Of a stretch of 52,765 bases of DNA, positions 6,456 to 27,287 are shown piece by piece. The position numbers and the translations under genes were made by a program. The notes beneath the pieces were generated by a model. It was not told the origin of the DNA and made no database searches. It saw nothing but the letters and a program-made list of their open reading frames with translations. The stretch comes from Rhodovulum kholense (lineage in GTDB: Bacteria > Pseudomonadota > Alphaproteobacteria > Rhodobacterales > Rhodobacteraceae), in contig NZ_QAYC01000022.1 of assembly GCF_003053725.1 (NCBI RefSeq), positions 1 through 52,765 of the forward strand, read 5' to 3'. Position 1 is the stretch's first letter; each line of letters opens with the position of its first letter.

Positions 6456-7271
6456 TCAGATCTGGCCGTCTTTGGGCAGGTCCTGTTCGAAGACATGGCC
6501 GTCGGTATCCTCGGCCCGGACATGCAGGCTGGCGGCGCCATTATCGGAATAGGAGAAGCGGAAGACCGGGTTTTCGCTGATCGAGATGCCGCCCTCGACG
6601 CGGAACAGAAGCTCGTCGCCCTGACGCACCTCGATCCGGTCGAGATAGAGCGGCGGGATGAAGAGCTGGGTCACCTGATCGCGTTGCAGGCCGGAATAGT
6701 TCGGGTGGCGGATCATGATCTGGGTCTCGCGCCGGGGCGTTGAAAGCGCGGGGGCTGTGTCGGCGAAGGGTTTGAGCCGCATCCGGCCGATATCGGCCAG
6801 CGCCAGATCGGGGCTCTTGCTGGCCGGGGCCGAGCAGCCCCCCGAGGCCTTGACGAAGCGGCCGTCCATGAAGAGGCCGGTTTCGGTATCGGCGATCACC
6901 CGGACGTTGGAATACTGGTTGACGCGCGCCCGAAGCTCGAGATCGAGCGGCGCCATGGCCGGGCCGAAGACGATGTCGGCGGCCAGCGGCATCGGGTTTT
7001 CGTCGATCACCAGGCGGGCGCGGGAGATATGCGCCTCGGGGTCGGTCTGGCGGATCCGGATCGGGACGGTGGCGGCGTCTTCGGCGCGGTAGGGCGCCTC
7101 GATCTCGAAGGGCGCGGGACCCTGGGCGAGGGGCGCGTCCTGGCCGAGGATCTGCGGCCGGATCTCGTCCCAGACCGGGCTTGCGGTCAGCGGGTTGGCG
7201 CGGAGGCTGTCTTCGGCGGCTGCGGGCATGGCGGCCAGCGCGGCCAGCGCCGTGGCGATGACGGTCTTCAT
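6456..7271 (-). CDS. Quinoprotein-associated SoxYZ-like carrier, paralog 1
   Basis: A 271-residue exported protein; the signal peptide MKTVIATALAALAAMPAAA defines the start at 7271. It matches the fused SoxY/SoxZ-like carrier family that accompanies quinoprotein dehydrogenases. Visible marks are VIDENPMPLA (about 88-97), a single conserved Cys146 in KASGGCSAP at the SoxY-like junction, and HPNYSGLQRDQVTQLFIPP in the SoxZ-like half. In Sox systems the carrier cysteine holds a sulfur intermediate. What this family carries is not established. The gene is divergent from the partner hydrolase at 7412 and has a paralog at 15294-16100. Confidence 0.85.
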   Translation of the reverse strand: MKTVIATALAALAAMPAAAEDSLRANPLTASPVWDEIRPQILGQDAPLAQGPAPFEIEAPYRAEDAATVPIRIRQTDPEAHISRARLVIDENPMPLAADIVFGPAMAPLDLELRARVNQYSNVRVIADTETGLFMDGRFVKASGGCSAPASKSPDLALADIGRMRLKPFADTAPALSTPRRETQIMIRHPNYSGLQRDQVTQLFIPPLYLDRIEVRQGDELLFRVEGGISISENPVFRFSYSDNGAASLHVRAEDTDGHVFEQDLPKDGQI

Positions 7272-7411
7272 GGGAACCTCCCTTTTCCGCATGAGATGCC
7301 GTTGAGGATGCCATAGCGGCAGGGTTCTGCCCATCGGCCAATGGTCGGTGTCGATCACGGTTGCGGGATCGGGCAGGGTCGGTGCCGGAGGCCCATCGGC
7401 AGGGAGGGGGC
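7272..7411. promoter_or_regulatory. Divergent promoter region, SoxYZ-like carrier and metallohydrolase
   Basis: A 140-bp gap between divergent starts at 7271 (minus) and 7412 (plus). Ribosome-binding sequences are visible for both genes (GGGAGGTTCCC on minus, GGGAGGGGGC on plus). No sigma-70 -35/-10 pair or clear operator can be assigned with confidence, so promoter function follows from gene orientation only. Confidence 0.45.
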
Positions 7412-8446
7412 ATGTTCGAGGCGGTCATGACGTTGTGTCTGGCGCTGTCGCGCGAGGTCTGCCGCGAGGTGGTGCTGCCCGGGATCTGGGCGGCCGGGGA
7501 CAAGGAGTGCCGCGCGGCGCTGGCGTCAGCGCCCGGGGCGTTTCCGGGGCTTGTGGCGGAGGGGCCGCCGCGCTGCCGGGAGGCGGGGCCCGCGCTGGCC
7601 TTCGACGAGATCGCGCCGGGGGTGCTGGTGCATCGCGGTCAGGTGGCCGAGGCCGATGGGGACAACCTTGGCGACATTTCCAATATCGCGGTGGTGATCG
7701 GCACGCGCTCGGTTGCGGTGATCGACAGCGGATCGGCGCGTTGGATCGGCGAGGCGGCCTGGCGGGCGATCCGAGCGCGGACCGCGCTGCTGGTCAGCCA
7801 TGTGATCCTGACCCATGTGCATCCCGATCACGTCTTCGGGGCCACGGCGCTGACCGAGGCCGGGGCCGAGGTGGTGGCCCATCAGGGGCTGGCGCGCGCG
7901 CTGGCCGACCGGCAGGCGGGGTATCTCGAGAGTCTCGGCCGGCTGATCGGGTCTGCCGCGCTGATCGGCACCGCCCCGCCGCCGGTCGACCGCGCGGTTT
8001 CCGGCGAGGCCGAGATCGACCTTGGCGGGCGGGTGTTGCGGCTTCGGGCCTGGCCGCCCGCCCATAGCGGCACCGACCTCACCGTTCTCGACAGCGCAAG
8101 CGGCATCCTTTTCGCGGGCGATCTGGTCTTCGACGATCATCTGCCCGCGCTCGACGGCACGGTGCGGGGCTGGGCCGCGGTGCTGGAGGAGATGGGGCAG
8201 GACGGCGCCGCCTTCGTCGTGCCCGGCCATGGCGGGCCGGTGCTGCCCTGGCCCGCGGGCGGGGCCGCGACCGCGCGCTATCTGGAGGTTCTGGCGCGGG
8301 ATGCGCGGGCGGCGGTCGCGACAGGCGAACGGTTGGGCGACGCGATCGGCCACATCGCCGGGGAAGAACGCGGGCACTGGCGCCTGTTCGACGCCTTCAA
8401 CCCCCGGAATGCCACGGTGGCCTTCACCGAGATGGAGTGGGAGTGA
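7412..8446 (+). CDS. Quinoprotein-relay metallo-beta-lactamase-fold hydrolase
   Basis: A 344-residue protein with the MBL zinc motif THVHPDHVFG (HVHPDH at 135-140) and later ligands in PPAHSGTDL, FAGDLVF and VVPGHGG. It matches the SoxH-related hydrolases that travel with PQQ dehydrogenases and SoxYZ-like carriers. The start at 7412 follows GGGAGGGGGC and gives a short hydrophobic N-terminus (MFEAVMTLCLALS), a possible signal peptide. Presumed role: periplasmic hydrolysis of a thioester-like adduct on the carrier cysteine, by analogy with SoxH; the substrate is unknown. The 3' end overlaps the convergent gene at 8424 by 23 bases. Confidence 0.85.
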   Translation: MFEAVMTLCLALSREVCREVVLPGIWAAGDKECRAALASAPGAFPGLVAEGPPRCREAGPALAFDEIAPGVLVHRGQVAEADGDNLGDISNIAVVIGTRSVAVIDSGSARWIGEAAWRAIRARTALLVSHVILTHVHPDHVFGATALTEAGAEVVAHQGLARALADRQAGYLESLGRLIGSAALIGTAPPPVDRAVSGEAEIDLGGRVLRLRAWPPAHSGTDLTVLDSASGILFAGDLVFDDHLPALDGTVRGWAAVLEEMGQDGAAFVVPGHGGPVLPWPAGGAATARYLEVLARDARAAVATGERLGDAIGHIAGEERGHWRLFDAFNPRNATVAFTEMEWE

Positions 8447-11171: not shown

Positions 11172-11489
11172 CGGACCAGAGGGAGGAACCGGCCATGACA
11201 GGAGGGGATCGCAGCACGGGACGGCGCGCGGCCCCCGGCTCTGGTCGGCCTGCCTCTCTCGCCGCCGTCGCCGTCGATGACGGACCCGCAGCCGCCCTGA
11301 CCCGGCGGCGGCGCCGGTCCCGGACCATTTCAGCAGAGGAGGGCAACGCCTGACATTTCCGAACGTGGCGTCGGAGGGAGGACCAAGACACCCGATCGCC
11401 GCGCATTCCGGTTTCGAAACGCCAGGACGCTGAGCCCGTCACGCGGCCGAGGCCGGAACAAGGACAAGACCAACGCAAGGGAGTTGAAC
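11172..11489 (+). promoter_or_regulatory. Leader/promoter region of xoxF
   Basis: The 318-bp gap contains a short Arg-rich open frame (11195-11353), a second purine-rich GGAGGGAGGACC at about 11371-11382 that is not followed by a start codon, and AAGGGAG as the ribosome-binding site before the xoxF ATG at 11490. No confident -35/-10 pair is visible. The long leader suggests xoxF has its own promoter in addition to read-through from adhC-fghA. Confidence 0.45.
11195..11353 (+). CDS. Possible 52-codon small ORF between fghA and xoxF
   Basis: ATG at 11195 is preceded by GAGGGAGGAACCGGCC, a very good ribosome-binding site at suitable spacing. It opens 52 sense codons ending at TGA 11351-11353. 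The product is rich in Arg and Ala, with a run of five arginines near residues 37-41 and no hydrophobic segment. It could be a translated leader or small protein of the xoxF operon, or a chance reading frame in GC-rich DNA. No homolog is recognised. Confidence 0.3.
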
Positions 11490-13292
11490 ATGAGAACGAT
11501 CTACGCCTTGACGTCTGTGATCGCCCTCTCGACGGGGACGGCGGCGCTGGCCAACGAAGCGCTGCAGCAGATGATGGACGACCCGACCCAATGGGCGATC
11601 CAGATGGGGGACTACTCGAACCACCGCTATTCCGAGCTCGATCAGATCAACGCCGACAACGTGGGCGATCTGAAGGTGGCCTGGACCTTCTCGACCGGGG
11701 TCCTGCGCGGCCATGAGGGCTCGCCGCTGGTGATCGGCGACACGATGTACGTGCATACGCCCTTCCCCAACATCGTCTATGCGCTTGATCTGAACGACAA
11801 TGGCCGCATCAAGTGGCGCTACGAGCCCAAGCAGGATACCAGCGTCATTCCGGTGATGTGCTGCGATACCGTCAACCGCGGCGTGGCCTTTGCCGACGGC
11901 AAGATCATCCTGCATCAGGCCGATACCACCGTCGTGGCGCTCGACGCCAATACCGGCGAGGTTCTGTGGTCGGTCAAGAACGGCGATCCCGAGAAGGGCG
12001 AGACCAACACCGCCACGGTGCTGCCGGTCAAGAACAAGGTACTGGTCGGCATCTCGGGCGGCGAGTTCGGGGTTCGCGGCTCGGTCACGGCCTATAACCT
12101 GGAAACCGGCGAGCGGGAATGGCGTGCCTATTCGATGGGCCCGGACAGCGACACACTGATGGACCCCGAGAAGACCACCATGCTGGGCAAGCCGGTCGGC
12201 GTCGATTCCGGCACCGCGACCTGGGAAGGCGACCAGTGGAAGATCGGCGGCGGCACCACCTGGGGCTGGTATTCCTACGACCCCGAGCTGAACCTCGTCT
12301 ATTACGGCACCGGCAACCCCTCGACCTGGAACCCCAGCCAGCGCCCGGGCGACAACCGCTGGTCGATGACCATCATGGCCCGCGATCCCGATACCGGAAT
12401 GGCGAAATGGGTCTATCAGATGACGCCGCATGACGAATGGGACTTCGACGGCGTCAACGAGATGATCCTGACCGATCAGGAAATCGACGGGCAGATGCGC
12501 AAGCTGCTGACCCATTTCGACCGGAACGGCCTGGCCTACACGCTTGACCGCGAAAGCGGCGAGTTGCTGGTGGCCGAGAAATACGATCCGGCGGTGAACT
12601 GGACCACCGGCGTCGACATGGACCCGAATTCCGACACCTATGGCCGCCCGGCCGTGGTGGCGGAATATTCGACCTCGCAGAACGGCGAGGACGAGAACAC
12701 CACCGGCATCTGCCCGGCGGCGCTGGGCACCAAGGACCAGCAGCCCTCGTCCTATTCGCCCAAGACCGGGCTCTTCTACGTGCCGACCAACCATGTCTGC
12801 ATGGATTACGAACCGTTCCGCGTCAGCTACACCGCCGGCCAGCCCTATGTCGGCGCCACGCTGTCGATGTATCCCGCACCCGACAGCCATGGCGGCATGG
12901 GCAACTTCATCGCCTGGGACAACATCAAGGGCGAGATCAAGTGGTCGATCCCGGAACAGTTCTCGGTCTGGTCGGGGGCGATGGCCACGGCGGGCGACAT
13001 CGTCTTCTACGGCACGCTCGAAGGCTATCTGAAGGCGGTCCGGGCCGATACCGGCGAAGAGCTTTACCGCTTCAAGACGCCCTCGGGCATCATCGGCAAC
13101 GTGATGAGCTATGAACATGGCGGCAAGCAGTATGTCGCGGTGCTGTCGGGGGTCGGCGGCTGGGCCGGGATCGGGCTCGCGGCGGGGCTGACCAACCCCA
13201 ATGACGGGCTCGGCGCGGTGGGCGGCTATGCGGCGCTCAGCGACTACACCGCACTTGGCGGCCAGCTGACCGTGTTCACCCTGCCGGATTGA
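11490..13292 (+). CDS. xoxF: Lanthanide-dependent PQQ methanol dehydrogenase XoxF
   Basis: A 600-residue periplasmic quinoprotein with signal peptide [20 protein letters not shown]. Family marks are the vicinal disulfide C124-C125 ([10 protein letters not shown]) near PQQ, repeated tryptophan-docking propeller blades ([28 protein letters not shown]), and [13 protein letters not shown]318 is the catalytic Asp. D320, two residues later, is the extra carboxylate that coordinates a rare-earth ion in XoxF; calcium-type MxaF has Ala there. The start is the ATG at 11490, preceded by AAGGGAG; a TTG six bases upstream is in frame. No mxaFI genes occur in the window, so this is the methanol dehydrogenase of the island. 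The downstream cytochrome XoxG is its acceptor. Confidence 0.98.
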
Positions 13293-15293: not shown

Positions 15294-16100
15294 TCAATAG
15301 CCCGGGAAATCTTTCCCCGCATGGGTGATCGTGCCCTCGGTATCGGTCATGGTCGCCTCGGCGTGCCGGGTGCCCGCGGGGACGTTCAGCCCGATCTCGG
15401 GGTTTTCCGACAGCGAGATCGATCCGGTGAGCGCAGCGTAAGGCTGGCCGTCAAGTTCGACCTCCAGCCGTTCGACGTAGCGCATCGGAATGAACAGAAG
15501 CGTCACCTGATCGCGTTGCAGCCCCGAGAGGCTCGGATGGCGTATGCCGATCCCCAGCCGCGCCTCCGGCCCGGCATGGGCGAGCGCGGCCAGCCGCCCG
15601 GCGGCGCCAAGGGGCGTCATCTCGAGGCTCATCTCGCCCAGCCGGGCCAGCGCTGCCTCGGGGTCGGTGCCGGGCGGCGCGGCGCAGGCGCCTTGGCCCG
15701 AGGTCTTGACGAAGCCTTCGGCCAGATAGACCTCGCCATCGGCGGTTTCGGCCAGCACATGCAGGGGTGTCGGTCCGTTGATGCGGAAGGTGACGTCGAA
15801 GGCCAGCCGGGGTTCGGGCCGGGCCAGCTCCAGCACCGCCGAGACCGGCATCGGGTTCTCGTCAAGAACGACCGTGACGCGTGCGATCAGCCGCCCGCCC
15901 GGGGCTTCGGCCTCGATCCCGATCACGGTGCGGGCGTCGTTCTCGGTGCGGTAGGGGCTGGCGATCCGGATCGCCTCGCCCGCGGGCAGGGGCGTGCGAC
16001 CCTCCAGCAGCATCGGCGCGATGGCATCCCAAGCGGTCTCGGCGGTCTGGGCCGGGACGGGCGCCGCGGCCAGCAGAAGGCACAGCAGGATCGGGCGCAT
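15294..16100 (-). CDS. Quinoprotein-associated SoxYZ-like carrier, paralog 2
   Basis: A 268-residue exported protein (signal MRPILLCLLLAAAPVPAQT) of the same family as the carrier at 6456-7271. Shared marks are VLDENPMPVS (78-87), one cysteine at the corresponding place (C139 in TSGQGACAAP) and HPSLSGLQRDQVTLLFIP. The residues around the cysteine differ from paralog 1 (SGGCSAP), so the two are not recent duplicates and may have different roles. The start overlaps the preceding propeller stop. It is the last gene of the minus-strand accessory operon. Confidence 0.85.
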   Translation of the reverse strand: MRPILLCLLLAAAPVPAQTAETAWDAIAPMLLEGRTPLPAGEAIRIASPYRTENDARTVIGIEAEAPGGRLIARVTVVLDENPMPVSAVLELARPEPRLAFDVTFRINGPTPLHVLAETADGEVYLAEGFVKTSGQGACAAPPGTDPEAALARLGEMSLEMTPLGAAGRLAALAHAGPEARLGIGIRHPSLSGLQRDQVTLLFIPMRYVERLEVELDGQPYAALTGSISLSENPEIGLNVPAGTRHAEATMTDTEGTITHAGKDFPGY

Positions 16101-17053: not shown

Positions 17054-17564
17054 CGAGCCCCGCCTGATAGACCGCCGAGACGGCGGCGATGGCGGCCTCG
17101 TCGTTCAGCTCGGGCGGCGGGTCGTTGTTGGGATAGCCGCGGTAGAAGGCACCGCGCCATTCGACCTCGGACCCGCCGCCCTCGCGCGGCTTGACCGTCA
17201 GATGCGAGGAATAGTTGGTGACCGGCAGAACCTCGACCTTCACGTCGGTGATCCGGTAGGAATAGCTCATCTTGGTGGCGTCGTACTTGTAAAGCACCTC
17301 CGAGATCGTCGGCCCGTCGGCCGTGCCCAGATGCAGAACGCGGGTCGCGTCGATGGCATTGCCGCCCTCGCCGTCGGTGGTGGCGACAGCCGGATGCCAA
17401 CTCATGTCCTGGAAATTGCCGATGGCGGCCCAGACCTCTTCGGGCGGGGCGGCCAGGTCTGTCGTCAGGGTGATCTTCTGGCGCGTCGGCCCATGGGCCA
17501 GTGCCATGGCGGGTATCAGGGCGACAAGGCCCGCCAGGGCCGCGCGTCTTGCGATGGATGTCAC
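17022..17564 (-). CDS. MxaD-like SRPBCC protein, periplasmic
   Basis: A 180-residue exported protein with an SRPBCC (START-like) fold: ITLTTDLAAPPEEVWAAIGN, FQDMSWHP and SEVEWRGAFYR. This is the pattern of MxaD, a periplasmic protein that stimulates electron transfer between methanol dehydrogenase and cytochrome cL. The signal peptide ends near AMALAHG. GGGAGGAAAC is a clear ribosome-binding site upstream of the ATG at 17564. It lies second in the minus-strand operon, after the DUF3280-like gene. mxaD is mostly associated with mxa operons; here it belongs to a xox island. The functional assignment is by family and context. Confidence 0.85.
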   Translation of the reverse strand: MTSIARRAALAGLVALIPAMALAHGPTRQKITLTTDLAAPPEEVWAAIGNFQDMSWHPAVATTDGEGGNAIDATRVLHLGTADGPTISEVLYKYDATKMSYSYRITDVKVEVLPVTNYSSHLTVKPREGGGSEVEWRGAFYRGYPNNDPPPELNDEAAIAAVSAVYQAGLDALVARFGAP

Positions 17565-17576
17565 GAGTTTCCTCCC

Positions 17577-18101
17577 TCACTCTTTCCCGAAATAGTGGTT
17601 GTCCAGAATGTAGCGGATGCCGCGCAGCCAGGACTCGTCGGTGTTCGACCGGATATCGACCGACCGGCCCCGGACCATCCGGCCCTCGGGCAGCTCCAGC
17701 AGCACAAGATTCATCGACAGGATCAGGTTCGAGACCTTCTGGACCTCGCCCTCCAGCACATAGGCGGCGCCCAGCTTCCGCCCCATCCGCAGATCGCAGC
17801 CATAGCATTTCGCCGGGTTGACCGTGGCCTCCAGCTCGGCGGCGACCGGGGGCAGGTCCATCAGGGTGAAGCCCTCGGAGCGGAAGCGGCGCGCGACCTC
17901 GTCCCGCAGCAGGGCGAGCCGGGCCGTTTCGTCCTCGCGAGCGCCGAAATAGGCGCCCTCGGTCGAGGTATCGAGGAAGGCCAGCCCCAGAAAGGCCACG
18001 GGCCCCTTGCGGTCGAGCGGCGGCGCCTCGGGTGCCCCGGCATGCGCTGCGCCGAAGGGCAGGGCGGCAAGCAGGATGGTCAGGGCGAGGTGGCGCAGCA
18101 T
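17577..18101 (-). CDS. DUF3280-like exported protein
   Basis: A 174-residue product with signal peptide MLRHLALTILLAALPFGAAH. The mature part has FLGLAFLDTSTEG, a cysteine pair in NPAKCYGCDLRMGRKLGA, VQKVSNLILSMN and a C-terminal RSNTDESWLRGIRYIL. This fits a family of unknown function that recurs in PQQ-alcohol clusters, annotated as DUF3280 as far as I recall. It is the first gene of the minus-strand accessory operon, 12 bases before the MxaD-like gene. The paired cysteines may bind metal or form a disulfide. Confidence 0.78.
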   Translation of the reverse strand: MLRHLALTILLAALPFGAAHAGAPEAPPLDRKGPVAFLGLAFLDTSTEGAYFGAREDETARLALLRDEVARRFRSEGFTLMDLPPVAAELEATVNPAKCYGCDLRMGRKLGAAYVLEGEVQKVSNLILSMNLVLLELPEGRMVRGRSVDIRSNTDESWLRGIRYILDNHYFGKE

Positions 18102-18225
18102 CGTCCCAGCTTAGGAAGGGCCGGAACCGCTTCAATGCGCCTTTAGTATCGGTTTCCCCCGGCCGGGATCGTCTGCCACAGTCGGGCTGCGGGGCCCGCC
18201 AAGAGGCCCGACCGGGAGGATACCC
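18102..18225. promoter_or_regulatory. Divergent promoter region of the accessory and transport operons
   Basis: A 124-bp gap between the DUF3280-like gene (minus) and the transport operon (plus). It includes an AT-richer patch CTTTAGTATCGGTTT (18142-18156) and the ribosome-binding site CGGGAGGATA. An inverted repeat CGGGC/GCCCG occurs around 18182-18210. Both operons probably start here; exact promoters are not assignable. Confidence 0.45.
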
Positions 18226-19410
18226 ATGCTGCGCCCGATCTGCCTGCTGCTTGCGGCGGCGCTTGCGGTCCTGTCCGCGGGCGGTGCCTTTGCACTTGAG
18301 GTCCGGGTGGGCGTGATCCGTGTCGACCGGCCGCAGCTGGCGCCGATCTCGCGCCTTGAAGCATGGCCCCGCGACCTCGGCTTTGCCGGGGGGCGGCTTG
18401 CCGACGAGGACAACGCCACCACCGGCCGGTTTCTCGGCCATGCCTATATCACTGAAACAGAAGCGGTTGTGCCGGACGCGGCCCTGGCCGCGCTCGACCG
18501 GATGCTGGGCGAGGGCCTTCGGCTGTTCGTGGTGCTGGGGCAGGCCGACGATCTGCTGGCGTTGGCCGACCGGGCCGGGGACGGGGCCTTGGTGCTGAAT
18601 GCGGGCGCGCGCGAGACACGGCTGCGCGATGCCGATTGCCGGGCCAATCTGCTGCATGTGGCGCCGAGCGAGGCGATGCTGGCCGATGCGGTGGCCGAAT
18701 TCGCGATCTGGAAGAAGTGGACGCGCTGGGCGCTGATCTCGGGCTCGCATCCCGAGGACCGCGCGATGGCCGAGGCCTATCGCCGGGCGGCCGCGAAATT
18801 CGGTGCAAAGATCGTCGAGGAGCGGGTCTTCGAGGATACCGGCGGCGGGCGGCGCACCGATACCGGCCATGTCCTGGTGCAGCGCCAGATCCCGGTCTTT
18901 TCCGAGGGGATGAGGGACTACGATCTGGTGATCGCGGCCGATGCCTCGGACGTTTTCGCGCCCTATCTGCCGTTTCACATGTGGGACCCGCGCCCGGTGA
19001 TGGGCGCGGCGGGGCTGCGCCCTGTCAGTTTTCACGCCGCCACCGAGGCCTGGGGCGCGACGCAGTTCCAGCGCCGCTTCGAGGCGCTCACCGGCCGTCA
19101 GGTCCGCGAGGAGGATTATCAGGTCTGGCTGGCGCTGCGGGTCGTGGGCGAGGCCGTGACGCGGACCGACAGCGCCGATCCGGTCGCACTGCGCGACTAC
19201 ATGCTGGGCCCGGGGTTCGAACTGGCCGCCTTCAAGGGCCAGAAGGTGACGTTTCGCGACTGGAACGGCCAGCTGCGCCAGCCGATCCTTCTGTATGACG
19301 GGCGGATCAATGTCAGCGTCTCGCCGCAAGAGGGCTTTCTGCACCAGCGCTCGCCGCTTGATACGCTGGGGCTCGATGCGCCGGAATCGACCTGTGCGGC
19401 ATTCAGATAG
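18226..19410 (+). CDS. ABC substrate-binding protein of the PQQ-alcohol system (PedB/LutA-like)
   Basis: A 394-residue exported type I periplasmic binding protein with signal MLRPICLLLAAALAVLSAGG. Family marks are GVIRVDRPQLAPISRLEAWP, FLGHAYITETE, and WKKWTRWALISGSHPEDRAMA. This is the substrate-binding component of the ABC system found with PQQ alcohol dehydrogenases; its Pseudomonas (Ped) and Methylobacterium (Lut) relatives are tied to lanthanide utilisation. It heads a plus-strand operon. The ligand has not been shown; a lanthanide chelate is the leading idea from those relatives. Confidence 0.86.
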   Translation: MLRPICLLLAAALAVLSAGGAFALEVRVGVIRVDRPQLAPISRLEAWPRDLGFAGGRLADEDNATTGRFLGHAYITETEAVVPDAALAALDRMLGEGLRLFVVLGQADDLLALADRAGDGALVLNAGARETRLRDADCRANLLHVAPSEAMLADAVAEFAIWKKWTRWALISGSHPEDRAMAEAYRRAAAKFGAKIVEERVFEDTGGGRRTDTGHVLVQRQIPVFSEGMRDYDLVIAADASDVFAPYLPFHMWDPRPVMGAAGLRPVSFHAATEAWGATQFQRRFEALTGRQVREEDYQVWLALRVVGEAVTRTDSADPVALRDYMLGPGFELAAFKGQKVTFRDWNGQLRQPILLYDGRINVSVSPQEGFLHQRSPLDTLGLDAPESTCAAFR

Positions 19411-19420
19411 GGGGATGGAC

Positions 19421-20410
19421 ATGAGAGCGATACCGATCGCGCTGGCGCTGGCGCTGGCGCTGGGGGCAACCGGCGCCGAGGCCAACAAGGTCTTCGTCTC
19501 GAACGAGAAGGGCAACACCGTCACGGTGATCGACAGCGACAGCTGGCAGGTCATCGACGAATTCGCCGCCGGCAACCGCCCGCGCGGCATCACTATCAGC
19601 CCGGACGGCACCAAATTGTACGTCTGCGCCTCGGACGATGACACGGTGCGGGTCTTCGACACCGCCACCCATGACGAGCTTTATACCCTGCCCTCGGGCC
19701 CCGACCCCGAGCTGTTCGTGCTGAACCACAGCGGCAACCCGCTTTACATCGCCAACGAGGACGACAACCTGGTGACCGTGGTCGATACCGAAACCCATGC
19801 CGTGCTGGCCGAGATCCCCGTGGGGGTCGAGCCCGAGGGCATGGCGATCAGCCCCGACGGGCGGGTCGTGGTCAACACCTCGGAAACGACCAACATGGCC
19901 CATTTCATCTCGACCGAGGATTACCAGATCCACCACAATATCCTGGTCGATCAGCGCCCGCGTTATGCCGAATACACCGCCGACGGCCGCAAGCTATATG
20001 TCAGCGCCGAGATCGGCGGCACGGTCAGCGTGATCGACATCGCCGAGGACGGCACGCCCGCGCTGGTCGATACCATCCGCTTCGACGTGCCGGGCGTGCT
20101 GCCCGAATGGCTGCAGCCGGTGGGCATCCGCGTGACCTCGGACGGCAAATGGGTCTTCGTGGCGTTGGGCCCCGCCAACCGGGTTGCGGTGATCGACGCG
20201 GCGACCGACGAGGTGGTCGATTACATCCTGGTGGGCCAGCGGGTCTGGCAGATGGCCTTCACCCCCGACGAGGCTTTCCTGATCACCACCAACGGCAATT
20301 CCAACGATGTCACCGTCATCGACGTGGCGCGCCAGAAGGCGGTGCGCTCGATCCAGGTGGGCCAGCAGCCCTGGGGCGTGGCGGTGACCCCGGACGGAAC
20401 CCCCGACTGA
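19421..20410 (+). CDS. PQQ-catabolism-associated beta-propeller (PedA2/Lut-like)
   Basis: A 329-residue exported seven-bladed YVTN propeller. Visible blades include VFVSNEKGNTVTVIDSDSWQ, LYVCASDDDTVRVFDTATH and NSNDVTVIDVARQKAVRSIQ. The signal peptide is MRAIPIALALALALGATGAEA. The start at 19421 is preferred because AGGGGG ends six bases before it; an in-frame ATG at 19415 abuts that site. It lies 10 bases after the binding-protein gene. Homologs are constant partners of the PQQ-linked ABC transporter and probably act in the periplasm with the binding protein. Confidence 0.86.
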   Translation: MRAIPIALALALALGATGAEANKVFVSNEKGNTVTVIDSDSWQVIDEFAAGNRPRGITISPDGTKLYVCASDDDTVRVFDTATHDELYTLPSGPDPELFVLNHSGNPLYIANEDDNLVTVVDTETHAVLAEIPVGVEPEGMAISPDGRVVVNTSETTNMAHFISTEDYQIHHNILVDQRPRYAEYTADGRKLYVSAEIGGTVSVIDIAEDGTPALVDTIRFDVPGVLPEWLQPVGIRVTSDGKWVFVALGPANRVAVIDAATDEVVDYILVGQRVWQMAFTPDEAFLITTNGNSNDVTVIDVARQKAVRSIQVGQQPWGVAVTPDGTPD

Positions 20411-20445
20411 GCATGTGGAAACGCGCAGCGAGAGGGAGGAGAACG

Positions 20446-21414
20446 ATGCTGAAACGACTGACCGGCGCGGCGCTGGCGGTTCTGGCGCTGCTGGGACCGG
20501 CCCGGGCCGAGGATCTGCCGCAGCTGCGCGCGGCGGTGCTGAAGATCGGCACCGTGACCTGGGAGCTTGAGACGATCAAGGCCCATGGCTTCGACCGGGC
20601 GCATGGCTTCGAGCTGGTGCTGGCGCCCTATGCCGACAATGGCGCGACCCGGGTCGCCTTCGAGGGCGGCGCGGCCGAAACCATGGTCGCCGACTGGATC
20701 TGGGTCGCGCGTCAGCGCGCCGCGGGCCGACCCTATGTGGCGATCCCCTATTCCACAGCGGTGGGCGGGCTGGTGGTGCCTGCGGACAGCGATGCCGAAA
20801 CGCTGGCCGATCTGGCGGGCGGCAAGATCGGCATCGCAGGCGGGCCTTTGGACAAGTCCTGGCTGATCCTGCGCGCCTATGCGCAGGCCGAATACGGCAT
20901 GGATCTGGCGGCCCGGACAGAACAGGTCTTCGGCGCGCCGCCGCTGATCTTCAAGGCCGGGATGTCGGGCGAGCTGCAGGGCGCCATCAACTTCTGGCAT
21001 TTCCTCGCCAAGATGCGCGCGGGGGGCATGCGCGAACTGGTTTCGGTGTCGGAGGCCTCGGCCGCGCTGGGGCTCGATCCGGGCACGCCGCTTCTGGCCT
21101 ATGTGCTGGACGAGGGCTTCGTCGCCGCCCATCCCGGGATCGACCGCGCGCTTTATGCGGCCTCGCGCGATGCCAAGGACCTGCTGGCGACCGACGATGC
21201 CGCCTGGGACGAGATCCGGCCGCTGATGAACGCCGGGACCGACGCCGAATTCGAGGCGTTGCGCGCGGACTGGCGCGCAGGCGTTCCCGCGCCCGGCAAT
21301 GTTGCGCCCGAGGCCGCAGACCGGCTGCTGCGGCTGATGGCCGAGCTTGGCGGCGCCGATCTGGTGGGGGAGGCGACGACGCTGCCCGAGGGCACCTTCG
21401 CCGTGGTCGAGTGA
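20446..21414 (+). CDS. NitT/TauT-type ABC substrate-binding protein
   Basis: A 322-residue exported binding protein (signal MLKRLTGAALAVLALLGPARA) of the SsuA/TauA/ThiY-like group. Typical segments are AAVLKIGTVTWELETIKAHG and FEGGAAETMVADWIWVARQR, then LADLAGGKIGIAGGPLDKSW. GGGAGGAGAACG precedes the ATG. It begins 35 bases after the beta-propeller and is followed closely by a permease and an ATPase, forming a complete importer inside the Ped/Lut-like operon. The ligand cannot be predicted; candidates are a lanthanophore, PQQ or an organic acid. Confidence 0.85.
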   Translation: MLKRLTGAALAVLALLGPARAEDLPQLRAAVLKIGTVTWELETIKAHGFDRAHGFELVLAPYADNGATRVAFEGGAAETMVADWIWVARQRAAGRPYVAIPYSTAVGGLVVPADSDAETLADLAGGKIGIAGGPLDKSWLILRAYAQAEYGMDLAARTEQVFGAPPLIFKAGMSGELQGAINFWHFLAKMRAGGMRELVSVSEASAALGLDPGTPLLAYVLDEGFVAAHPGIDRALYAASRDAKDLLATDDAAWDEIRPLMNAGTDAEFEALRADWRAGVPAPGNVAPEAADRLLRLMAELGGADLVGEATTLPEGTFAVVE

Positions 21415-21420
21415 CCCGCG

Positions 21421-22170
21421 ATGCCGGACCGGATCGTCGTGCCCCTTGTCTCGATCCTGGGGCTTCTCGCGCTTTGGGCGGGGGCGGCCGCGCTGACGGC
21501 CGACCCGCAGATCCTGCCCTTTCCCTGGGCGCTGGCCGAGCCCTTCGGCCAAGCGATCCGGTCGGGCGAGCTGCCCTATCATCTGGGCCGGACGCTGACC
21601 CGGGTGGCCTGGGCCTTCTGTCTGGCGATGGGGGGCGGGGTTGCGCTGGGGCTGGCGATGGGGCGGCTGCCCCGGCTCGACCGCTGGCTCGATCCGTGGC
21701 TGGTGGTGTTCCTGAACCTGCCTGCGCTGGTCCTGATCGTGCTGTGCTACCTCTGGATCGGGCTGACCGAGACCGCGGCGATCGTCGCGGTGACGCTGAA
21801 CAAGATCCCGCAGGTGACGACGGTGATCCGCGAGGGCGCGCGGGCGCTGTCGCGCGATCTCGACGCCATGGCGCAGGTCTACCGGATGCCGCCTCTGGCA
21901 CGGCTCCGCCATGTGGTGTTGCCGCAGCTGGCGCCCTTCATGGTGGCGGCGGCACGGTCGGGCATCGCGGTGATCTGGAAAATCGTTCTGGTGGTCGAGT
22001 TTCTCGGCCGCTCGGACGGGATTGGGTTTCAGATCCACCTGTATTTCCAGCTCTTCGACGTGACCAGGGTGCTGGTCTACGCGCTTTCTTTCGTGGCGGT
22101 GATGCTGGCGGTCGAATGGCTGTTCCTGCAACCCTGGGAACGCCGCATCCGGCGCTGGCGCGCGGCATGA
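21421..22170 (+). CDS. NitT/TauT-type ABC permease
   Basis: A 249-residue integral membrane protein with about six transmembrane segments. It carries the binding-protein-dependent permease EAA-type loop EGARALSRDLDAMAQVYRMP, followed by RLRHVVLPQLAPFMVAAARS, as in SsuC/TauC. The start lies six bases after the binding-protein stop. The stop overlaps the ATPase start (ATGA at 22167-22170). It partners with the proteins encoded at 20446 and 22167. Confidence 0.9.
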   Translation: MPDRIVVPLVSILGLLALWAGAAALTADPQILPFPWALAEPFGQAIRSGELPYHLGRTLTRVAWAFCLAMGGGVALGLAMGRLPRLDRWLDPWLVVFLNLPALVLIVLCYLWIGLTETAAIVAVTLNKIPQVTTVIREGARALSRDLDAMAQVYRMPPLARLRHVVLPQLAPFMVAAARSGIAVIWKIVLVVEFLGRSDGIGFQIHLYFQLFDVTRVLVYALSFVAVMLAVEWLFLQPWERRIRRWRAA

Positions 22171-22760
22171 TCCGTCTGCATCTTCTGTCGAAACGCTTCG
22201 GTCCGGCCGAGGTTCTGGGCCGGATCGACCTGCAGATCGCGGCGGGCGAGACCGTCGCGCTGCTGGGGCCTTCGGGGATCGGCAAGTCAACGCTTTTGCG
22301 GATCGTGGCCGGGCTCGATTCCGATTTCGAGGGCCGGGTCGAGCGCCCCGGGCGCATCGCCATGGTGTTTCAGGAGCCGACCCTCCTGCCCTGGCGGACG
22401 GCGCTTCAGAACCTGCGGCTGGTGCATCCGGGCCTGAGCCGGGCCGCGGCGCAGGACATGCTGGCGCGCGTCGGTCTGACAGACAAGGGGCGGGCCTATC
22501 CGGGGCAGCTGTCGCTGGGCCAGCAAAGGCGGCTGGCGCTGGCGCGGGCCTTTGCGGGGCAACCGCAAGCGCTGGTGCTGGACGAACCCTTCGCCTCGCT
22601 CGACCCCGAGACCGCCGAAGCGATGCTGGCCCTGACCGAACGGCTGATCGCCGAGGCGCGGCCCGCGACGCTTCTGGTCACCCATGCCCGGGCCGAGGCC
22701 GAGCGGCTGGCCTCGCGCATTCACGTCCTTGACGGCCAGCCGGCCGTGCTGCGGCGGTGA
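22167..22760 (+). CDS. NitT/TauT-type ABC ATP-binding protein
   Basis: A compact 197-residue ATPase, shorter than the usual 240-260 residues of SsuB/TauB. Walker A is GPSGIGKSTLL, the Q-loop is VFQEPTLLPW, the signature is LSLGQQRRLALARA (LSLGQ instead of LSGGQ), Walker B is LVLDEPFASLD, and the H-loop is LLVTHARAEAE. All catalytic elements are present, so it should be active; the shortness comes from lacking a C-terminal extension. It is coupled to the permease upstream and overlaps the next ATPase gene (GTGA at 22757-22760). Confidence 0.9.
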   Translation: MIRLHLLSKRFGPAEVLGRIDLQIAAGETVALLGPSGIGKSTLLRIVAGLDSDFEGRVERPGRIAMVFQEPTLLPWRTALQNLRLVHPGLSRAAAQDMLARVGLTDKGRAYPGQLSLGQQRRLALARAFAGQPQALVLDEPFASLDPETAEAMLALTERLIAEARPATLLVTHARAEAERLASRIHVLDGQPAVLRR

Positions 22761-23491
22761 GTGCGATGGCCGAGGCGCTGCGGCTAGAGAATGTGAGCCT
22801 CTCCTACGGGGCGCGGCAGGCGCTGGACGATGTGTCCTTTTCGGTCGCGCCGGGGCGGTTCTGCGCGCTGCTGGGGCCGAACGGGGCGGGCAAGTCGACG
22901 CTGTTCGGGCTGATGACCCGGCTTCTGGTCACCCGCACCGGCCGGATCGAGATCGCGGGCCATGACATCGCCCGCGCGCCGCGTCAGGCGCTGGCCCGGA
23001 TCGGGGTGGTGTTCCAGCAGCCGACGCTGGATCTCGACCTCACGGTCGCGCGCAACATGCGCTATTTCGCGGCGCTGCACGGGCTGTCGGGGCGCGAGGC
23101 CGCGATCCGGATCGACGCCGCGCTCGACCGGCTGGCGATGCGCGAGCGGGCGGGCGAGAAGGCCCGCGCGCTCAATGGCGGGCACCGGCGGCGGATGGAG
23201 ATCGCGCGCGCGCTGGTGCATGAACCCGACCTTCTGCTGCTGGACGAGCCGACGGTGGGGCTCGATGCGATGAGCCGCAAGGCGATCACCGCCCATGTCC
23301 ACGATCTGGCCGAGGACGGGCTGAGCGTGCTGTGGGCCACCCATCTGGTCGACGAGATCGCGCCCGGGGACGATGTCGTCGTGCTGCATCGGGGCCGCGT
23401 GCTGCGGCAGGCCCAGGCCTCGGACATCGCGGGGCCCGCGGGTCTGGCCGAGGCGTTTCTGGCGATGACCGCCGAGGGGGGCGGGGCATGA
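22757..23491 (+). CDS. ABC ATP-binding protein of the PQQ-alcohol system (PedA1/LutE-like)
   Basis: A 244-residue ATPase with Walker A GPNGAGKSTLFG, Q-loop VFQQPTLDLDLTV, Walker B LLLLDEPTVGLD and H-loop ATHLVDEI. The signature is LNGGHRRRMEIARAL, with Asn for the usual Ser. The motif GVVFQQPTLDLDLT is typical of the ATPase that accompanies PQQ dehydrogenases. GTG 22757 overlaps the upstream stop; ATG 22766 is an alternative. It pairs with the ABC-2 permease that overlaps it by four bases. Confidence 0.9.
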   Translation: MSAMAEALRLENVSLSYGARQALDDVSFSVAPGRFCALLGPNGAGKSTLFGLMTRLLVTRTGRIEIAGHDIARAPRQALARIGVVFQQPTLDLDLTVARNMRYFAALHGLSGREAAIRIDAALDRLAMRERAGEKARALNGGHRRRMEIARALVHEPDLLLLDEPTVGLDAMSRKAITAHVHDLAEDGLSVLWATHLVDEIAPGDDVVVLHRGRVLRQAQASDIAGPAGLAEAFLAMTAEGGGA

Positions 23492-24276
23492 GCGGCTGGT
23501 TTTCTGCGCTCAGGGCCATCGTCGGGCGCGAGGCGTTGCGCTTTCTGCATCAGCGTGGGCGGTTCCTGTCGGCGCTGGTGCGGCCTCTGGTCTGGCTGGT
23601 GGTCTTTGCCGCCGGGTTTCGCGCGGCGCTGGGCCTGTCGATCATCCCGCCCTATCAGACCTATATCACCTACGAGGTCTACATCGTTCCGGGTCTTTGC
23701 GGGATGATCCAGCTTTTCAACGGGATGCAATCCTCGCTGTCGCTTGTCTACGACCGCGAGATGGGGTCGATGCGGCTTTTGATGACCTCGCCCCTGCCGC
23801 GCTGGTGGCTGCTGTTCTGCAAGCTGACGGCGGGCGTCGCGGTGTCGATCCTGCAGGTCTATGCCTTTCTGGCCATCGCCGCCGGTTTCGGCATCGTGCT
23901 ACCGCCCCTGGGCTATCTCTGGGCCTTTCCGGCGCTTGTTCTCAGCGGGCTGATGCTGGGCGCGCTGGGGCTTTTCATCTCGTCGACGGTGCGCCAGCTG
24001 GAAAACTTCGCGGGCGTGATGAACTTCGTCATCTTCCCGATGTTCTTCCTGTCGACCGCGCTTTATCCGCTGTGGAAGATGGCCGAAAGCTCGCGGCTTC
24101 TGCGCGACATCTGCGCGCTGAACCCCTTTACCCATGCGGTCGAGTTGATCCGGTTTGCCCTCTACGAAAGTCTGAATGGCTGGGCGCTGCTTTGGGTGGC
24201 CTCGGGCTTTCTCGTCTTCTTCCTGCTGGCGCTTTGGGGCTACGACCCGGCGCGCAGCCGCCCCGGGCGGGACTGA
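23488..24276 (+). CDS. ABC-2 type permease of the PQQ-alcohol system (PedC/LutF-like)
   Basis: A 262-residue membrane protein with about six transmembrane segments and the ABC-2 signature around LNPFTHAVELIRFALYE. Segments such as YEVYIVPGLCGMIQLFNGMQ and DREMGSMRLLMTSPLPRWWL match PedC-type permeases. ABC-2 permeases are usually exporters, yet the Lut and Ped relatives are linked to lanthanide uptake or tolerance, so transport direction is open. The start is ATG 23488, overlapping the ATPase stop. It ends five bases before pqqE on the other strand. Confidence 0.9.
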   Translation: MSGWFSALRAIVGREALRFLHQRGRFLSALVRPLVWLVVFAAGFRAALGLSIIPPYQTYITYEVYIVPGLCGMIQLFNGMQSSLSLVYDREMGSMRLLMTSPLPRWWLLFCKLTAGVAVSILQVYAFLAIAAGFGIVLPPLGYLWAFPALVLSGLMLGALGLFISSTVRQLENFAGVMNFVIFPMFFLSTALYPLWKMAESSRLLRDICALNPFTHAVELIRFALYESLNGWALLWVASGFLVFFLLALWGYDPARSRPGRD

Positions 24277-24281
24277 GGCGG

Positions 24282-25367
24282 TCAGCCCGCCGCCGCGCGC
24301 CAGAGGATCTCGGAGGCTTCCGCGGTGGCGAAGGCCTCGGCCCGGGCCTGAAGCGCTGCGTGATGCGGTGACTTGATGCAGACCGGGTCGGCCGCCGCCG
24401 GATCGCCCGCCAGCGCCATCGCCTGACAGCGGCAGCCGCCGAAATCGACGGTCTTGCGCTCGCAGCCCGCACAGGGCTCGCGCATCCAGTCGGTGCCGCG
24501 ATAGGCGGCGAAGGCGGCGCCCTCATACCAGATTTCGGCCAGCGGACGGTCGCGGACACTGTCGAAGACCAGGCCCGGGATGGTCTGGGCGGCATGGCAG
24601 GGCAGCACCGTGCCTTCGGGCGTGACGTTCAGCCCGGTCGTCCCCCAGCCGCCCATACAGCGCTTGGGATAGTCCGAATGGTAATCGGCCCGGACATAGT
24701 CGATGACCAGCACGCCCTTCAGCCGGGCGCGGGCCTCGGCCACGGTGGCATCGGCGGCGCGGGCCTGGGCGCGGGTCGGCATCAACGCTTCGCGGTTCTT
24801 CAGCGCCCAGCCGTGGAACTGGACGGTTGCGACCTCGATCCGGCGCGCGCCCATCTCGACCGCCATCTCGATGGCGCGCGGCAACTGGTGCAGGTTCTGG
24901 CGGTGCAGCACCGCGTTCAGGGTCAGCGGAAAGCCGATCTTGCCGATCAGCCGCGCGACCTCGAGCTTGCGGTCGAACCCGCCGCGATAGCCGCCGATCC
25001 GGTCGGCCATGGCGGCATCGGTGCCCTGCAGCGACAGCTGGATATGGTCGAGCCCGGCCGCATCGAGCGCGCGCAGCCGCTTTTCGGTCAGCCCGATCCC
25101 CGAAGTGATGAGGTTAGTGTAAAGCCCCGCCGCCCGGGCCTCGGCCACCAGCTCGGTCAGATCGCGCCGGGTCGCGGGTTCGCCGCCCGAGAGGTGCAGT
25201 TGCAGGACCCCCAGATCGGCCGCCTGCCGGAAGATCCCGGCCCAGGCGGCCGTGTCGAGTTCGCTGTCCTTCCGGGTCAGCTCCAGAGGGTTCGAGCAAT
25301 AGGGGCAGGCCAGCGGACAGCGGTGGGTCAGCTCGGCCAGCATGGCGATGGGGGGCGGAACACTCAC
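24282..25367 (-). CDS. pqqE: PqqE, radical SAM PqqA-peptide cyclase
   Basis: A 361-residue radical SAM/SPASM enzyme that cross-links Glu and Tyr of PqqA, the first step of PQQ synthesis. The SAM cluster cysteines are C17, C21 and C24 in CPLACPYC. C-terminal SPASM cysteines occur in RCMGGWG, VLPCHAAQ, EPCAGCERK and FGGCRCQAM. The start overlaps the pqqD stop by four bases. Length is in the usual range. It acts in the cytoplasm together with PqqD. Confidence 0.97.
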   Translation of the reverse strand: MSVPPPIAMLAELTHRCPLACPYCSNPLELTRKDSELDTAAWAGIFRQAADLGVLQLHLSGGEPATRRDLTELVAEARAAGLYTNLITSGIGLTEKRLRALDAAGLDHIQLSLQGTDAAMADRIGGYRGGFDRKLEVARLIGKIGFPLTLNAVLHRQNLHQLPRAIEMAVEMGARRIEVATVQFHGWALKNREALMPTRAQARAADATVAEARARLKGVLVIDYVRADYHSDYPKRCMGGWGTTGLNVTPEGTVLPCHAAQTIPGLVFDSVRDRPLAEIWYEGAAFAAYRGTDWMREPCAGCERKTVDFGGCRCQAMALAGDPAAADPVCIKSPHHAALQARAEAFATAEASEILWRAAAG

Positions 25368-25642
25368 CGGCGGATCTCCAGAAAGCGGCGGTCGAGAAGC
25401 GCGCCCAGAAAGCCCTGGCTGTCGGCGGCGATGGCGGCCTCGGGGGCGTCATAGGTTGCCGCCAGCGCGGCCGCGATGGCGGCGAAGCTGCGGATGCCGT
25501 CGATTTCGGCCAGGATCGCCCGGCCGGTCTCGTCAAGCGCCAGCGTGCGTTCGGGCGCCAGCAGCACCCAGCCGCCCCGCACCCGGTCCCGATGCAGACG
25601 CACGCCCCGCGGCAGGACGGGAATGTCCTCGGGTCCGATCAT
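25364..25642 (-). CDS. pqqD: PqqD, PqqA-binding chaperone
   Basis: A 92-residue RiPP recognition element-type protein: VLPRGVRLHRDRVRGGWVLL, then APERTLALDETGRAILAEID. It presents the PqqA peptide to PqqE. The start at 25642 forms an ATGA overlap with the pqqC stop; upstream in-frame starts would extend into pqqC and are not favoured. Size is normal for PqqD. Confidence 0.95.
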   Translation of the reverse strand: MIGPEDIPVLPRGVRLHRDRVRGGWVLLAPERTLALDETGRAILAEIDGIRSFAAIAAALAATYDAPEAAIAADSQGFLGALLDRRFLEIRR

Positions 25643-26394
25643 GATGCCCGCGCAAGTGCCAGCCCCTCGCCCGGCCGCCAGGCGCCGGGCGGGATGCGGG
25701 CGGGTGCGACATAGGCCGAATGCAAAGCGTCGAGCTGCGACCAAAGCACATCGGTCTTGAAGATCAGCGCATTGGCGGCGGCATCCTGACGGTCTGCGGT
25801 ATCGGCGTGATCCAGCACCCAGGCCAGCCCGAAGGCCACGTCCTTCGGCGCCTCGGTCAGGCGCTTGCGGAAATAGGACAGGCTGCTGTCATCGGCAAAC
25901 TCGTAGTTCCGCAGCAGGCCCTCGATCCGCTCGGCATGGATCTTCGGCGCGAACAGTTCGGTCAGCGACGAGGCCACGGCTTCGAGCAGGGTGCGTTCGC
26001 GCACGAAGCGCACATAGGCATCGACGGCAAAGCGGGTGGCGGGCAGCACGCCCGCGCAGGAGGCAACGTAGTCGGGGTCGAGCCCCACGGCCGAGGCCAG
26101 CCTGAGCCAGCGCGCGATGCCGCCCTCGTTGCCGTCGCTGCCGTCGTGATCCTCGATCCGCGAGCGCCAGGCGCGGCGCAGCGCCGGATCCTCGACCCGC
26201 GACAGGAAGGCCGCATCCTTCATCGGGATGCGGGACTGGTAGTAATAGCGGTTGATGACCCAGGCGCGCACCTGATCGGGGCTGCACTGGCCCCCATGCA
26301 GAAGGCCGTGGAACGGGTGCAGGTCGTGATAGCGCTCGGCGCCGATCCGGCGCAGCCGGGCCTCGAAGGCATCGCGTGTCGCGGGGGTGTTCAT
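25639..26394 (-). CDS. pqqC: PqqC, pyrroloquinoline-quinone synthase
   Basis: A 251-residue cofactorless oxidase that performs the final ring closure and eight-electron oxidation to PQQ. Recognisable stretches are YHDLHPFHGLLHGGQC, AWVINRYYYQSRIPMKDAAF, EDHDGSDGNEGGIARWL and SLTELFAPKIHAERI. His and Tyr residues of the active site are retained. The gene overlaps pqqB and pqqD by four bases each. Confidence 0.97.
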   Translation of the reverse strand: MNTPATRDAFEARLRRIGAERYHDLHPFHGLLHGGQCSPDQVRAWVINRYYYQSRIPMKDAAFLSRVEDPALRRAWRSRIEDHDGSDGNEGGIARWLRLASAVGLDPDYVASCAGVLPATRFAVDAYVRFVRERTLLEAVASSLTELFAPKIHAERIEGLLRNYEFADDSSLSYFRKRLTEAPKDVAFGLAWVLDHADTADRQDAAANALIFKTDVLWSQLDALHSAYVAPARIPPGAWRPGEGLALARAS

Positions 26395-27287
26395 GGGACG
26401 ATCTCCAGTCCATCCTGTCCGACGATCCAGCCCGCCGCCTCTGCCTCGGCCCGTTCGGGGCTGGAGGGATCGAGCACCGGATTGGTGTTGTTCATGTGCA
26501 CGAAGACCTTCTGTCCCACGTCGAGTCCGGCGAAGGCCCGGATCGACCCCTCGGGACCGCTCATCGAGATATGGCCCATCCGCCGTCCGGTCTTCTCGCC
26601 AAGCCCGGCCCGGATCATCTCGTCGTCGCGCCAGAGCGTGCCGTCGAAGAAGACCAGCGCCGCGCCGGCCAGCCGGGCCGCCAGATCGGGGGGGACGGCG
26701 GCGCAGCCGGGGATGTAGAAGGCCTTGGTTCCGCCTGCCTCGAGACGGACGCCCACGGTCTGTTCGCCGACGAGGTCGGTCTCGACCCTGTCGCCCTCGA
26801 GATAGAGCGGCACCTTGCCCGGCACCGGGAACAGCTCGGCCGTGAGGCCGGGTGCCAAAGGGAAGGGGCGGTCAAGTGCCACCGTCTCGCGCCGGACGAG
26901 GCCGGGGTTCAGCGCGCCGAAGATCGGGTTGGCGTCCAGCACCTCGTGGATCGCGGCCGTGGCCATCAGCGCGAAGGGCTGCGCCTCGCGCAGGGTCAAA
27001 AGCCCCGCGACATGGTCGATATCGCCGTTCGTCACCAGCACTGACCGCAGCGGCATCTCGCGCAGCCCGGTCGGATGCAGGTCGGGGCAGTTGGCCAGTT
27101 GCTGGCGGATATCGGGCGAGGCGTTCAGCACCGCCCAGTCGCGCCCGTTGCCGGTCACCGCCAGCGAGGACTGGGTCTGGGACGGAATCCGGCCCGCGCG
27201 GGCCGCATCGCAATTCGGACAGCCGCAATTCCATTGCGGCAGCCCGCCGCCGGCGGCCGCCCCGAGAATGCGCGCGCGAAGCGCCAT
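26391..27287 (-). CDS. pqqB: PqqB, metallo-hydrolase-fold PQQ biosynthesis protein
   Basis: A 298-residue protein of the MBL fold, thought to hydroxylate a tyrosine-derived intermediate in PQQ synthesis. Signatures are LGAAAGGGLPQWNCGCPNC near the N-terminus and VTNGDIDHVAGLLTLREAQP with the metal-site Asp/His. It starts 24 bases after pqqA and overlaps pqqC by four bases. Confidence 0.96.
   Translation of the reverse strand: MALRARILGAAAGGGLPQWNCGCPNCDAARAGRIPSQTQSSLAVTGNGRDWAVLNASPDIRQQLANCPDLHPTGLREMPLRSVLVTNGDIDHVAGLLTLREAQPFALMATAAIHEVLDANPIFGALNPGLVRRETVALDRPFPLAPGLTAELFPVPGKVPLYLEGDRVETDLVGEQTVGVRLEAGGTKAFYIPGCAAVPPDLAARLAGAALVFFDGTLWRDDEMIRAGLGEKTGRRMGHISMSGPEGSIRAFAGLDVGQKVFVHMNNTNPVLDPSSPERAEAEAAGWIVGQDGLEIVP

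Follow-up and report, generated by a model that had tools for sequence, protein, structure and literature searches.

The window analyzed here is a 52,765-nucleotide stretch of DNA from Rhodovulum kholense (contig NZ_QAYC01000022.1), and it carries at 18226-24276 a run of seven plus-strand genes in which two transport systems are combined. A complete ATP-binding cassette (ABC) importer (20446-22760), with intact binding protein, permease and ATPase, is nested between the binding protein and propeller of a Ped/Lut-type system and the ATPase and ABC-2 permease of that same system. This layout had been proposed in an earlier note made from the sequence alone, and it was confirmed, with all seven reading frames open at the positions listed in Table 1. 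The inner binding protein is a member of the PqqT family, and its ligand is most likely pyrroloquinoline quinone (PQQ). PqqT itself is already known, and the importer in the window is a further member of this family with its own permease and ATPase.

Table 1. Genes of the operon and its surroundings, and genomes or loci with a split importer
Feature	Position or handle	Strand	Basis
Ped/Lut-type substrate-binding protein, LutA/PedA1-like, first operon gene	18226..19410	+	TIGR03863, 461 bits (cut-off 414)
Ped/Lut beta-propeller, PedA2-like	19415..20410	+	TIGR03866, 509 bits (cut-off 287)
PqqT-type solute-binding protein, 322 amino acids, PQQ the likely ligand	20446..21414	+	Sequence, profile, predicted fold
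Inner-membrane permease of the PqqT set	21421..22170	+	BPD_transp_1, 81 bits
ATPase of the PqqT set, 197 amino acids	22167..22760	+	ABC_tran, 98 bits; Walker A GPSGIGKS, signature LSLGQ, Walker B LVLDEP
Ped/Lut ATPase, PedB/LutE-like	22757..23491	+	TIGR03864, 345 bits (cut-off 302)
Ped/Lut ABC-2 type permease, LutF-like	23488..24276	+	TIGR03861 PedC, 432 bits (cut-off 241)
Methanol dehydrogenase, presumably xoxF5-like, with motif WDFDG at its presumed position	11484..13292	+	Sole match in the genome at E <= 1e-30, itself as query
PQQ biosynthesis genes, presumably pqqE-pqqD-pqqC-pqqB, convergent with the operon	24282..27287	-	Open reading frames, conserved neighborhood
pqqT and ATPase with no permease between them; permease elsewhere, mostly on the same contig	L045, L058, L054, G066, G039, G159, G202		
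Same split arrangement, continued	G209, G126, G174, G059, G041, G044, G003 (L058 and G159 evidently one genome)		

The four outer genes match TIGR03863, TIGR03866, TIGR03864 and TIGR03861 together, each above its cut-off, and by analogy with the Ped and Lut systems they would serve lanthanide uptake in this organism. The same families make up PedA1A2BC of Pseudomonas putida KT2440 and LutABEF of Methylorubrum extorquens, systems that genetics has linked to the uptake of lanthanides (PMC12997753, PMC7391723; these and later citations refer to parts of the papers named). In P. putida the four ped genes are consecutive in the gene table, with no importer between them (PMC12997753), whereas three importer genes intervene in the window. 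The next-best curated models for the outer ATPase and permease are DrrA and DrrB, of an antibiotic-resistance efflux transporter. Against the PDB, the outer ATPase gave ABCB and ABCA proteins as best matches (among the best 60 of 110), and the outer permease gave one weak match, a “Transport permease protein” (E = 0.0036).

The junctions of the operon are, in order, gaps of 4, 35 and 6 bases followed by three 4-base overlaps (ATGA at 22167, GTGA at 22757 and ATGA at 23488). The description of all junctions as tight thus applies to most of them and was slightly overstated for the 35-base gap (20411-20445), in which a GGAGG-like site precedes the inner binding protein gene. The outer ATPase has a possible alternative start, ATG at 22766. 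This spacing suggests that the seven genes form one unit. A consensus scan of 17500-24900 gave no plus-strand sigma-70-like promoter, and the same interval holds six terminator-like sites vs. 3.4 (standard deviation 1.9) expected by chance.

Assignment of the inner binding protein to the PqqT family is based on sequence, profile, predicted fold and phylogeny. The protein is 97% identical to its R. visakhapatnamense counterpart; a family scan gave a weak match to PF09084 (NMT1; 24.3 bits, cut-off 20.5), and NCBIfam yielded nothing up to an E value of 0.01. A phmmer search of the PDB returned two distinct sequences of PqqT from M. extorquens AM1 (9b1u/9b1v, E = 1e-57; 9ooz, E = 3e-57) and, up to an E value of 1, one further match (E = 0.23). 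A profile built from 45 relatives scored PqqT at 357 bits (E = 6e-106), the next entry of another kind at 26.7 bits, SsuA at 21.5 bits (E = 9e-4) and TauA at 15.1 bits. With an AlphaFold2 model of the protein (mean predicted local distance difference test score, pLDDT, 93.4; predicted template modeling score 0.87), the top three Foldseek matches are PqqT crystals (Y161W with PQQ, PQQ with Gd3+, and PQQ; E = 2.5e-32 to 9.2e-32), at template modeling (TM) scores of 0.83-0.84 and 38% identity. The next match is 3qsl (E = 1.6e-16), and the first SsuA appears at E = 1.2e-14. A tree that combined 30 family members with TauA and SsuA of E. coli places the family on one side of a branch with support of 99/98, and much of the branching order within the family is poorly supported. 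A sulfonate or thiamine-type importer was rejected on the profile scores, fold matches and tree. The earlier label of NitT/TauT holds only at the level of the fold superfamily: within it, the binding protein groups with PqqT, apart from TauA and SsuA. Among the 45 aligned relatives 18 columns are invariant, including K137 and W184. PMC12828617 reviews work in which Lys142 of PqqT was mutated; one offset brings this residue to the invariant K137, but the title of 9ooz (Y161W) follows a different numbering, and the counterpart of Lys142 could not be fixed.

The arrangement recurs widely. The sample of close loci comprised the best 80 of 178 relatives of the inner binding protein and consequently leans toward close relatives. 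Of these 80 loci, 39 show the full order (binding protein, propeller, pqqT, permease, ATPase, Lut ATPase, Lut permease); an outer binding protein with its propeller precedes the set in 66, and a Lut ATPase with its permease follows it in 47. xoxF was found in the fetched stretch of 57 loci and pqqC in 14, with at least 9.5 kb of upstream sequence available in 67. Two conditions that the earlier note set as refuting its reading thus do not hold: the set is present in close xoxF islands, in a sample whose loci were found through the binding protein itself, and the binding protein does not group with TauA and SsuA. Among the 45 Rhodobacterales genomes with a xoxF5-like enzyme, PqqT is carried by 33 and absent from 12. 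Four other Rhodovulum species (L007-L010) have the operon without its outer binding protein and propeller; the outer binding protein is present in 12 of 12 genomes searched, and in these four species it lies at another place. Relatives were found, too, in 176 of the 72,556 plasmid records of PLSDB, 74 of these from Sinorhizobium.

The permease does not adjoin pqqT in three of the 80 loci and in several further genomes (Table 1), and searches still recovered it at another site in each of the 13 distinct genomes covered; these correspond to 14 handles, since G159 and G682 give identical coordinates. Six of the genomes with a displaced permease lack pqqC. An accident of one genome is ruled out by the 39 loci with the full order together with loci across the class, and a gene order that recurs so widely across relatives reflects more than chance. 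The idea that the nesting is a special novelty of this DNA is less well supported: Alphaproteobacteria commonly show this order, and PqqT sets are also found away from PQQ and Lut genes.

PqqT co-occurs with PQQ enzymes. We scored 292 Rhodobacterales genomes, with a PQQ alcohol dehydrogenase (PQQ-ADH) defined as a match to XoxF at E <= 1e-30, and found PqqT in 73, PQQ-ADH in 103, pqqC in 72 and the Lut permease in 104; the 72 pqqC genomes include 11 whose match crosses a single in-frame stop. PQQ-ADH and the Lut permease each occur in 70 of the 73 PqqT-bearing genomes, and the three PqqT-positive genomes that lack the dehydrogenase hold the three weakest PqqT matches. The Lut permease is present in 101 of the 103 genomes with PQQ-ADH. 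Within 12 kb of pqqT we found PQQ-ADH in 59 of 73 genomes, the Lut permease in 52, pqqC in 15 and any of these in 66. Genomes with PQQ-ADH carry PqqT in 32 of 35 cases when pqqC is missing, compared with 38 of 68 when it is present (Fisher p = 2.6e-4, kinship ignored). When these genomes are split by enzyme type, the signal proves to derive from those without a xoxF5-like enzyme (26 of 28 vs. 11 of 30, p = 7e-6), which are not of the type of the window. The exceptions that lack both pqqC and PqqT are G179 and G218, whose best match bears WDYTS in place of the aspartate motif, and G014, which has a xoxF5-like enzyme.

Beyond this order, 45 of 385 genomes surveyed across the class have a PqqT match. 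PQQ-ADH is present in 43 of these 45 and in 101 of the 385 overall. Loci were retrieved for 43 of the 45 and joined by six Rhodobacterales loci picked for having no marker within 12 kb, giving 49 stretches, some on short contigs. A gene for PQQ-ADH, PQQ biosynthesis or the Lut binding protein or permease lies nearby in 24 of the 49 (23 of 43 class-wide, one of six Rhodobacterales). In 12 of the 43 class-wide loci, spread over 6 of 24 other families, a Lut-type ATPase lies next downstream of the PqqT-set ATPase in the same orientation, with 123-262 bases between the matched ends, and in some of these 12 the propeller, binding protein and permease follow in another order. Of the 12 downstream ATPases, eight were compared with TIGR03864: seven score above its cut-off, and the eighth, a partial stretch, scores 263 vs. 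302. The closest relative of crystallized PqqT in the class search (L225, 72% identity) has pqqT, permease and ATPase in the order of the window, with xoxF-xoxG-xoxJ following within about 1 kb.

An extra exported protein of ~145 amino acids occurs in this region in relatives (L012:9194-9634; L015:12317-12739; 70 of 124 sequences searched), in the propeller-pqqT interval in 41 loci and between the two ATPases in 15. Neither the window nor the Rhodovulum loci (L006-L010 and L022) contained a match to it, and the two copies scanned matched no Pfam family. Its predicted structure (pLDDT 85.6) has a modest likeness to cupredoxins (best E = 5e-7, TM score about 0.5). Among 28 aligned copies, conservation reaches 90% at no His, Cys or Met position, whereas E76, E99, E109 and D111 never vary; one possibility is a partner protein that binds metal through acidic groups.

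We consider it quite probable that 20446-22760 encodes a PqqT-type ABC importer for the uptake or recapture of PQQ, and that it is probably co-expressed with lanthanide uptake. The PqqT homologue would capture leaked or offered PQQ in the periplasm with high affinity, and the permease (21421) and ATPase (22167) would move PQQ, or a PQQ adduct, inward across the inner membrane. Co-expression with the Ped/Lut lanthanide ABC system is probable because both systems supply cofactors, PQQ and lanthanide, to XoxF, which is encoded upstream. In this species, which has genes for PQQ biosynthesis, the importer would recover PQQ that has escaped to the periplasm or the medium; relatives that lack pqqC would use it for scavenging. 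The presence of an importer and an ABC-2 system in one operon raises the question of whether the two work in opposite directions. A broader proposal, possible and in our view doubtful, is that PQQ auxotrophs among the Alphaproteobacteria, a class in which PqqU is largely lacking, obtain PQQ chiefly through the lut-linked PqqT importer, such that PQQ, perhaps together with lanthanide, would pass through the cytoplasm on its way to periplasmic dehydrogenases, as part of a single cofactor-metal module.

Several observations weigh against the assignment of a PQQ importer. Identity to PqqT is only 38%, and Tyr161 of the PqqT chain, the residue altered in 9ooz, corresponds to Phe183 in the window protein. 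Genomes with a xoxF5-like enzyme give no pqqC signal (6 of 7 without pqqC vs. 27 of 38 with it, p = 0.65). Kinship accounts for part of the overall auxotroph signal: it weakens when cells of genus by state are counted (19 of 22 vs. 19 of 36, p = 0.011) and is not seen when states are permuted inside genera (p = 0.24), as just eight genera include both states. In addition, “no PQQ synthesis” stands for one pqqC query, and the binding protein alone was scored in the 32 genomes concerned. Across the class, pqqC is present in 27 of 34 PqqT genomes tested (of 45), and most such carriers are therefore probably producers. No marker lies nearby in 20 of the 43 class-wide loci, where short contigs or divergent genes may have caused misses, or in five of the six picked Rhodobacterales loci. 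The ATPase of the PqqT set escaped detection in four of the 49 loci, namely L226, L229, L261 and L235, the last of which ends with its contig there, and in one locus it sits just past the detection used. To our knowledge, moreover, the known PQQ enzymes are periplasmic, and we know of no established use for PQQ in the cytoplasm, least of all in non-producers.

Other explanations for the gene set must be weighed against these data. The binding protein might chiefly buffer PQQ in the periplasm or serve XoxF as a PQQ chaperone, with ABC parts that are little used or take part in signaling, in keeping with descriptions of PqqT as helping to prevent the loss of free PQQ and of quinoproteins as binding periplasmic PQQ (PMC12124388). 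Such a role is unlikely given that the permease is retained in 48 of the 49 loci and in all 13 distinct genomes where it is displaced, and that the ATPase motifs in the window are intact. It is very improbable that an ordinary sulfonate, nitrate or pyrimidine importer has drifted into the island. The best NCBIfam models for the inner permease (SaoP, 80.8 bits, cut-off 295; SsuC, 74.1 bits, cut-off 347) and ATPase (an SsuB-like model, 139 bits, cut-off 395) point in that direction, though all fall far below their cut-offs. SsuABC and TauABC share the ABC importer architecture and the fold superfamily of the binding protein, yet they are very distant in sequence; the binding protein profile strongly favors PqqT over SsuA and TauA, linkage to PQQ-ADH and lut genes is kept over many genera, and PqqT co-occurs with PQQ-ADH across the class.

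Another proposal is that the importer carries a lanthanide-PQQ complex to the cytoplasm, alongside Lut, for sensing or storage, with a light lanthanide held in the metal pocket of PQQ. The importer set is embedded in lut operons, the title of one PDB entry describes PqqT crystallized with PQQ and Gd3+, and the unmutated PQQ-PqqT complex binds La3+ at 6 µM (PMC12828617), although this affinity is weak and Lut mutants already have a lanthanide transport defect (PMC7391723). Dehydrogenase sequences offer a further comparison. One enzyme per genome was taken from 37 PqqT-bearing Rhodobacterales without a xoxF5-like enzyme, along with three further enzymes (G131, G015 and G287). We take the additional aspartate of interest to be the second D of WDFDG. 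This residue is present in all 37 enzymes, within WD[FY]DG in 36 and FDHDG in one (L200); among the three further enzymes, L203 has the second aspartate, L202 has WDYTS and L204 has alanine there. L204, which we presume to be MxaF-like, is 50% identical to XoxF. An additional aspartate has been used to predict lanthanide use (PMC12628762). However, WD[FY]DG is also present in 17 of 20 dehydrogenases from 21 PqqT-negative genomes with PQQ-ADH and without xoxF5, and because such genomes mostly have the motif too, it does not tie the set to lanthanides. As a sign of a lanthanide-specific set, the second aspartate was rejected as uninformative. We regard import of a lanthanide-PQQ complex as quite unlikely. 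Of the two substrates that had been proposed, a lanthanide complex or PQQ, the latter is well supported, and the former is only possible.

The surroundings of the operon include the dehydrogenase gene and the convergent PQQ biosynthesis genes, of which pqqE (24282-25367, minus strand) faces the operon directly. Two SoxY-SoxZ fusion proteins flank xoxF (15294-16100 and 6456-7358, minus strand), and a metallo-beta-lactamase-superfamily gene, presumably SoxH-like, lies at 7361-8446. Upstream of the xoxF island, 1093-5244 encodes a LuxR-type response regulator and a hybrid histidine kinase with PAS domains, which are candidates for regulation of the island. No tRNA is present in the window. Ten further window genes were scanned, a part of the remainder; three of the ten matched no family, and none matched a TonB receptor or lanmodulin family. 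Elsewhere in the genome, a second pair of TIGR03863-like binding protein and propeller (L161 and L162, G000:C7:166581-167729) is 62% and 75% identical, respectively, to the operon copies. The 16 kb around this pair gave no match to the Lut ATPase or Lut permease, and five mechanically chosen open reading frames near it gave no Pfam family.

PqqT of M. extorquens binds PQQ with a dissociation constant of 50 nM (PMC12124388) and is thought to limit PQQ loss and help in its capture (PMC12124388, PMC12828617). The importer in the window belongs to the same family and differs from it in sequence and in being located inside a Ped/Lut operon; the affinity was measured for PqqT alone. The TonB-dependent receptor PqqU (YncD) likewise serves high-affinity PQQ acquisition, but it resides in the outer membrane and has an unrelated fold. 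Only 23% of PqqU carriers have PQQ biosynthesis genes, and PqqU was found in one alphaproteobacterial genome, from which the class was inferred to consist likely of primarily PQQ producers (PMC12124388). Our counts qualify this view, in that 35 of 103 Rhodobacterales genomes with PQQ-ADH have no pqqC match and 32 of these 35 carry PqqT. Homologues of lutABEFG have been reported in the strains of one study, which places XoxF, lanthanide uptake and PQQ biosynthesis in a 28.5 kb region of Sinorhizobium meliloti 2011 (PMC12628762). The portion of that paper available to us does not mention the importer, and “ABC transporter” is absent from its main text. We found no description of PqqT sets within lut operons, or of the pqqC pattern, in open-licence PMC literature, outside of which the original PqqT papers lie.

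If our explanation is correct, then Rhodobacterales that lack pqqC would take PQQ from other organisms by means of a protein that is not PqqU, and would pair this uptake with that of lanthanides. It would also raise the question of why a cofactor should be imported into the cytoplasm when its known users lie outside.

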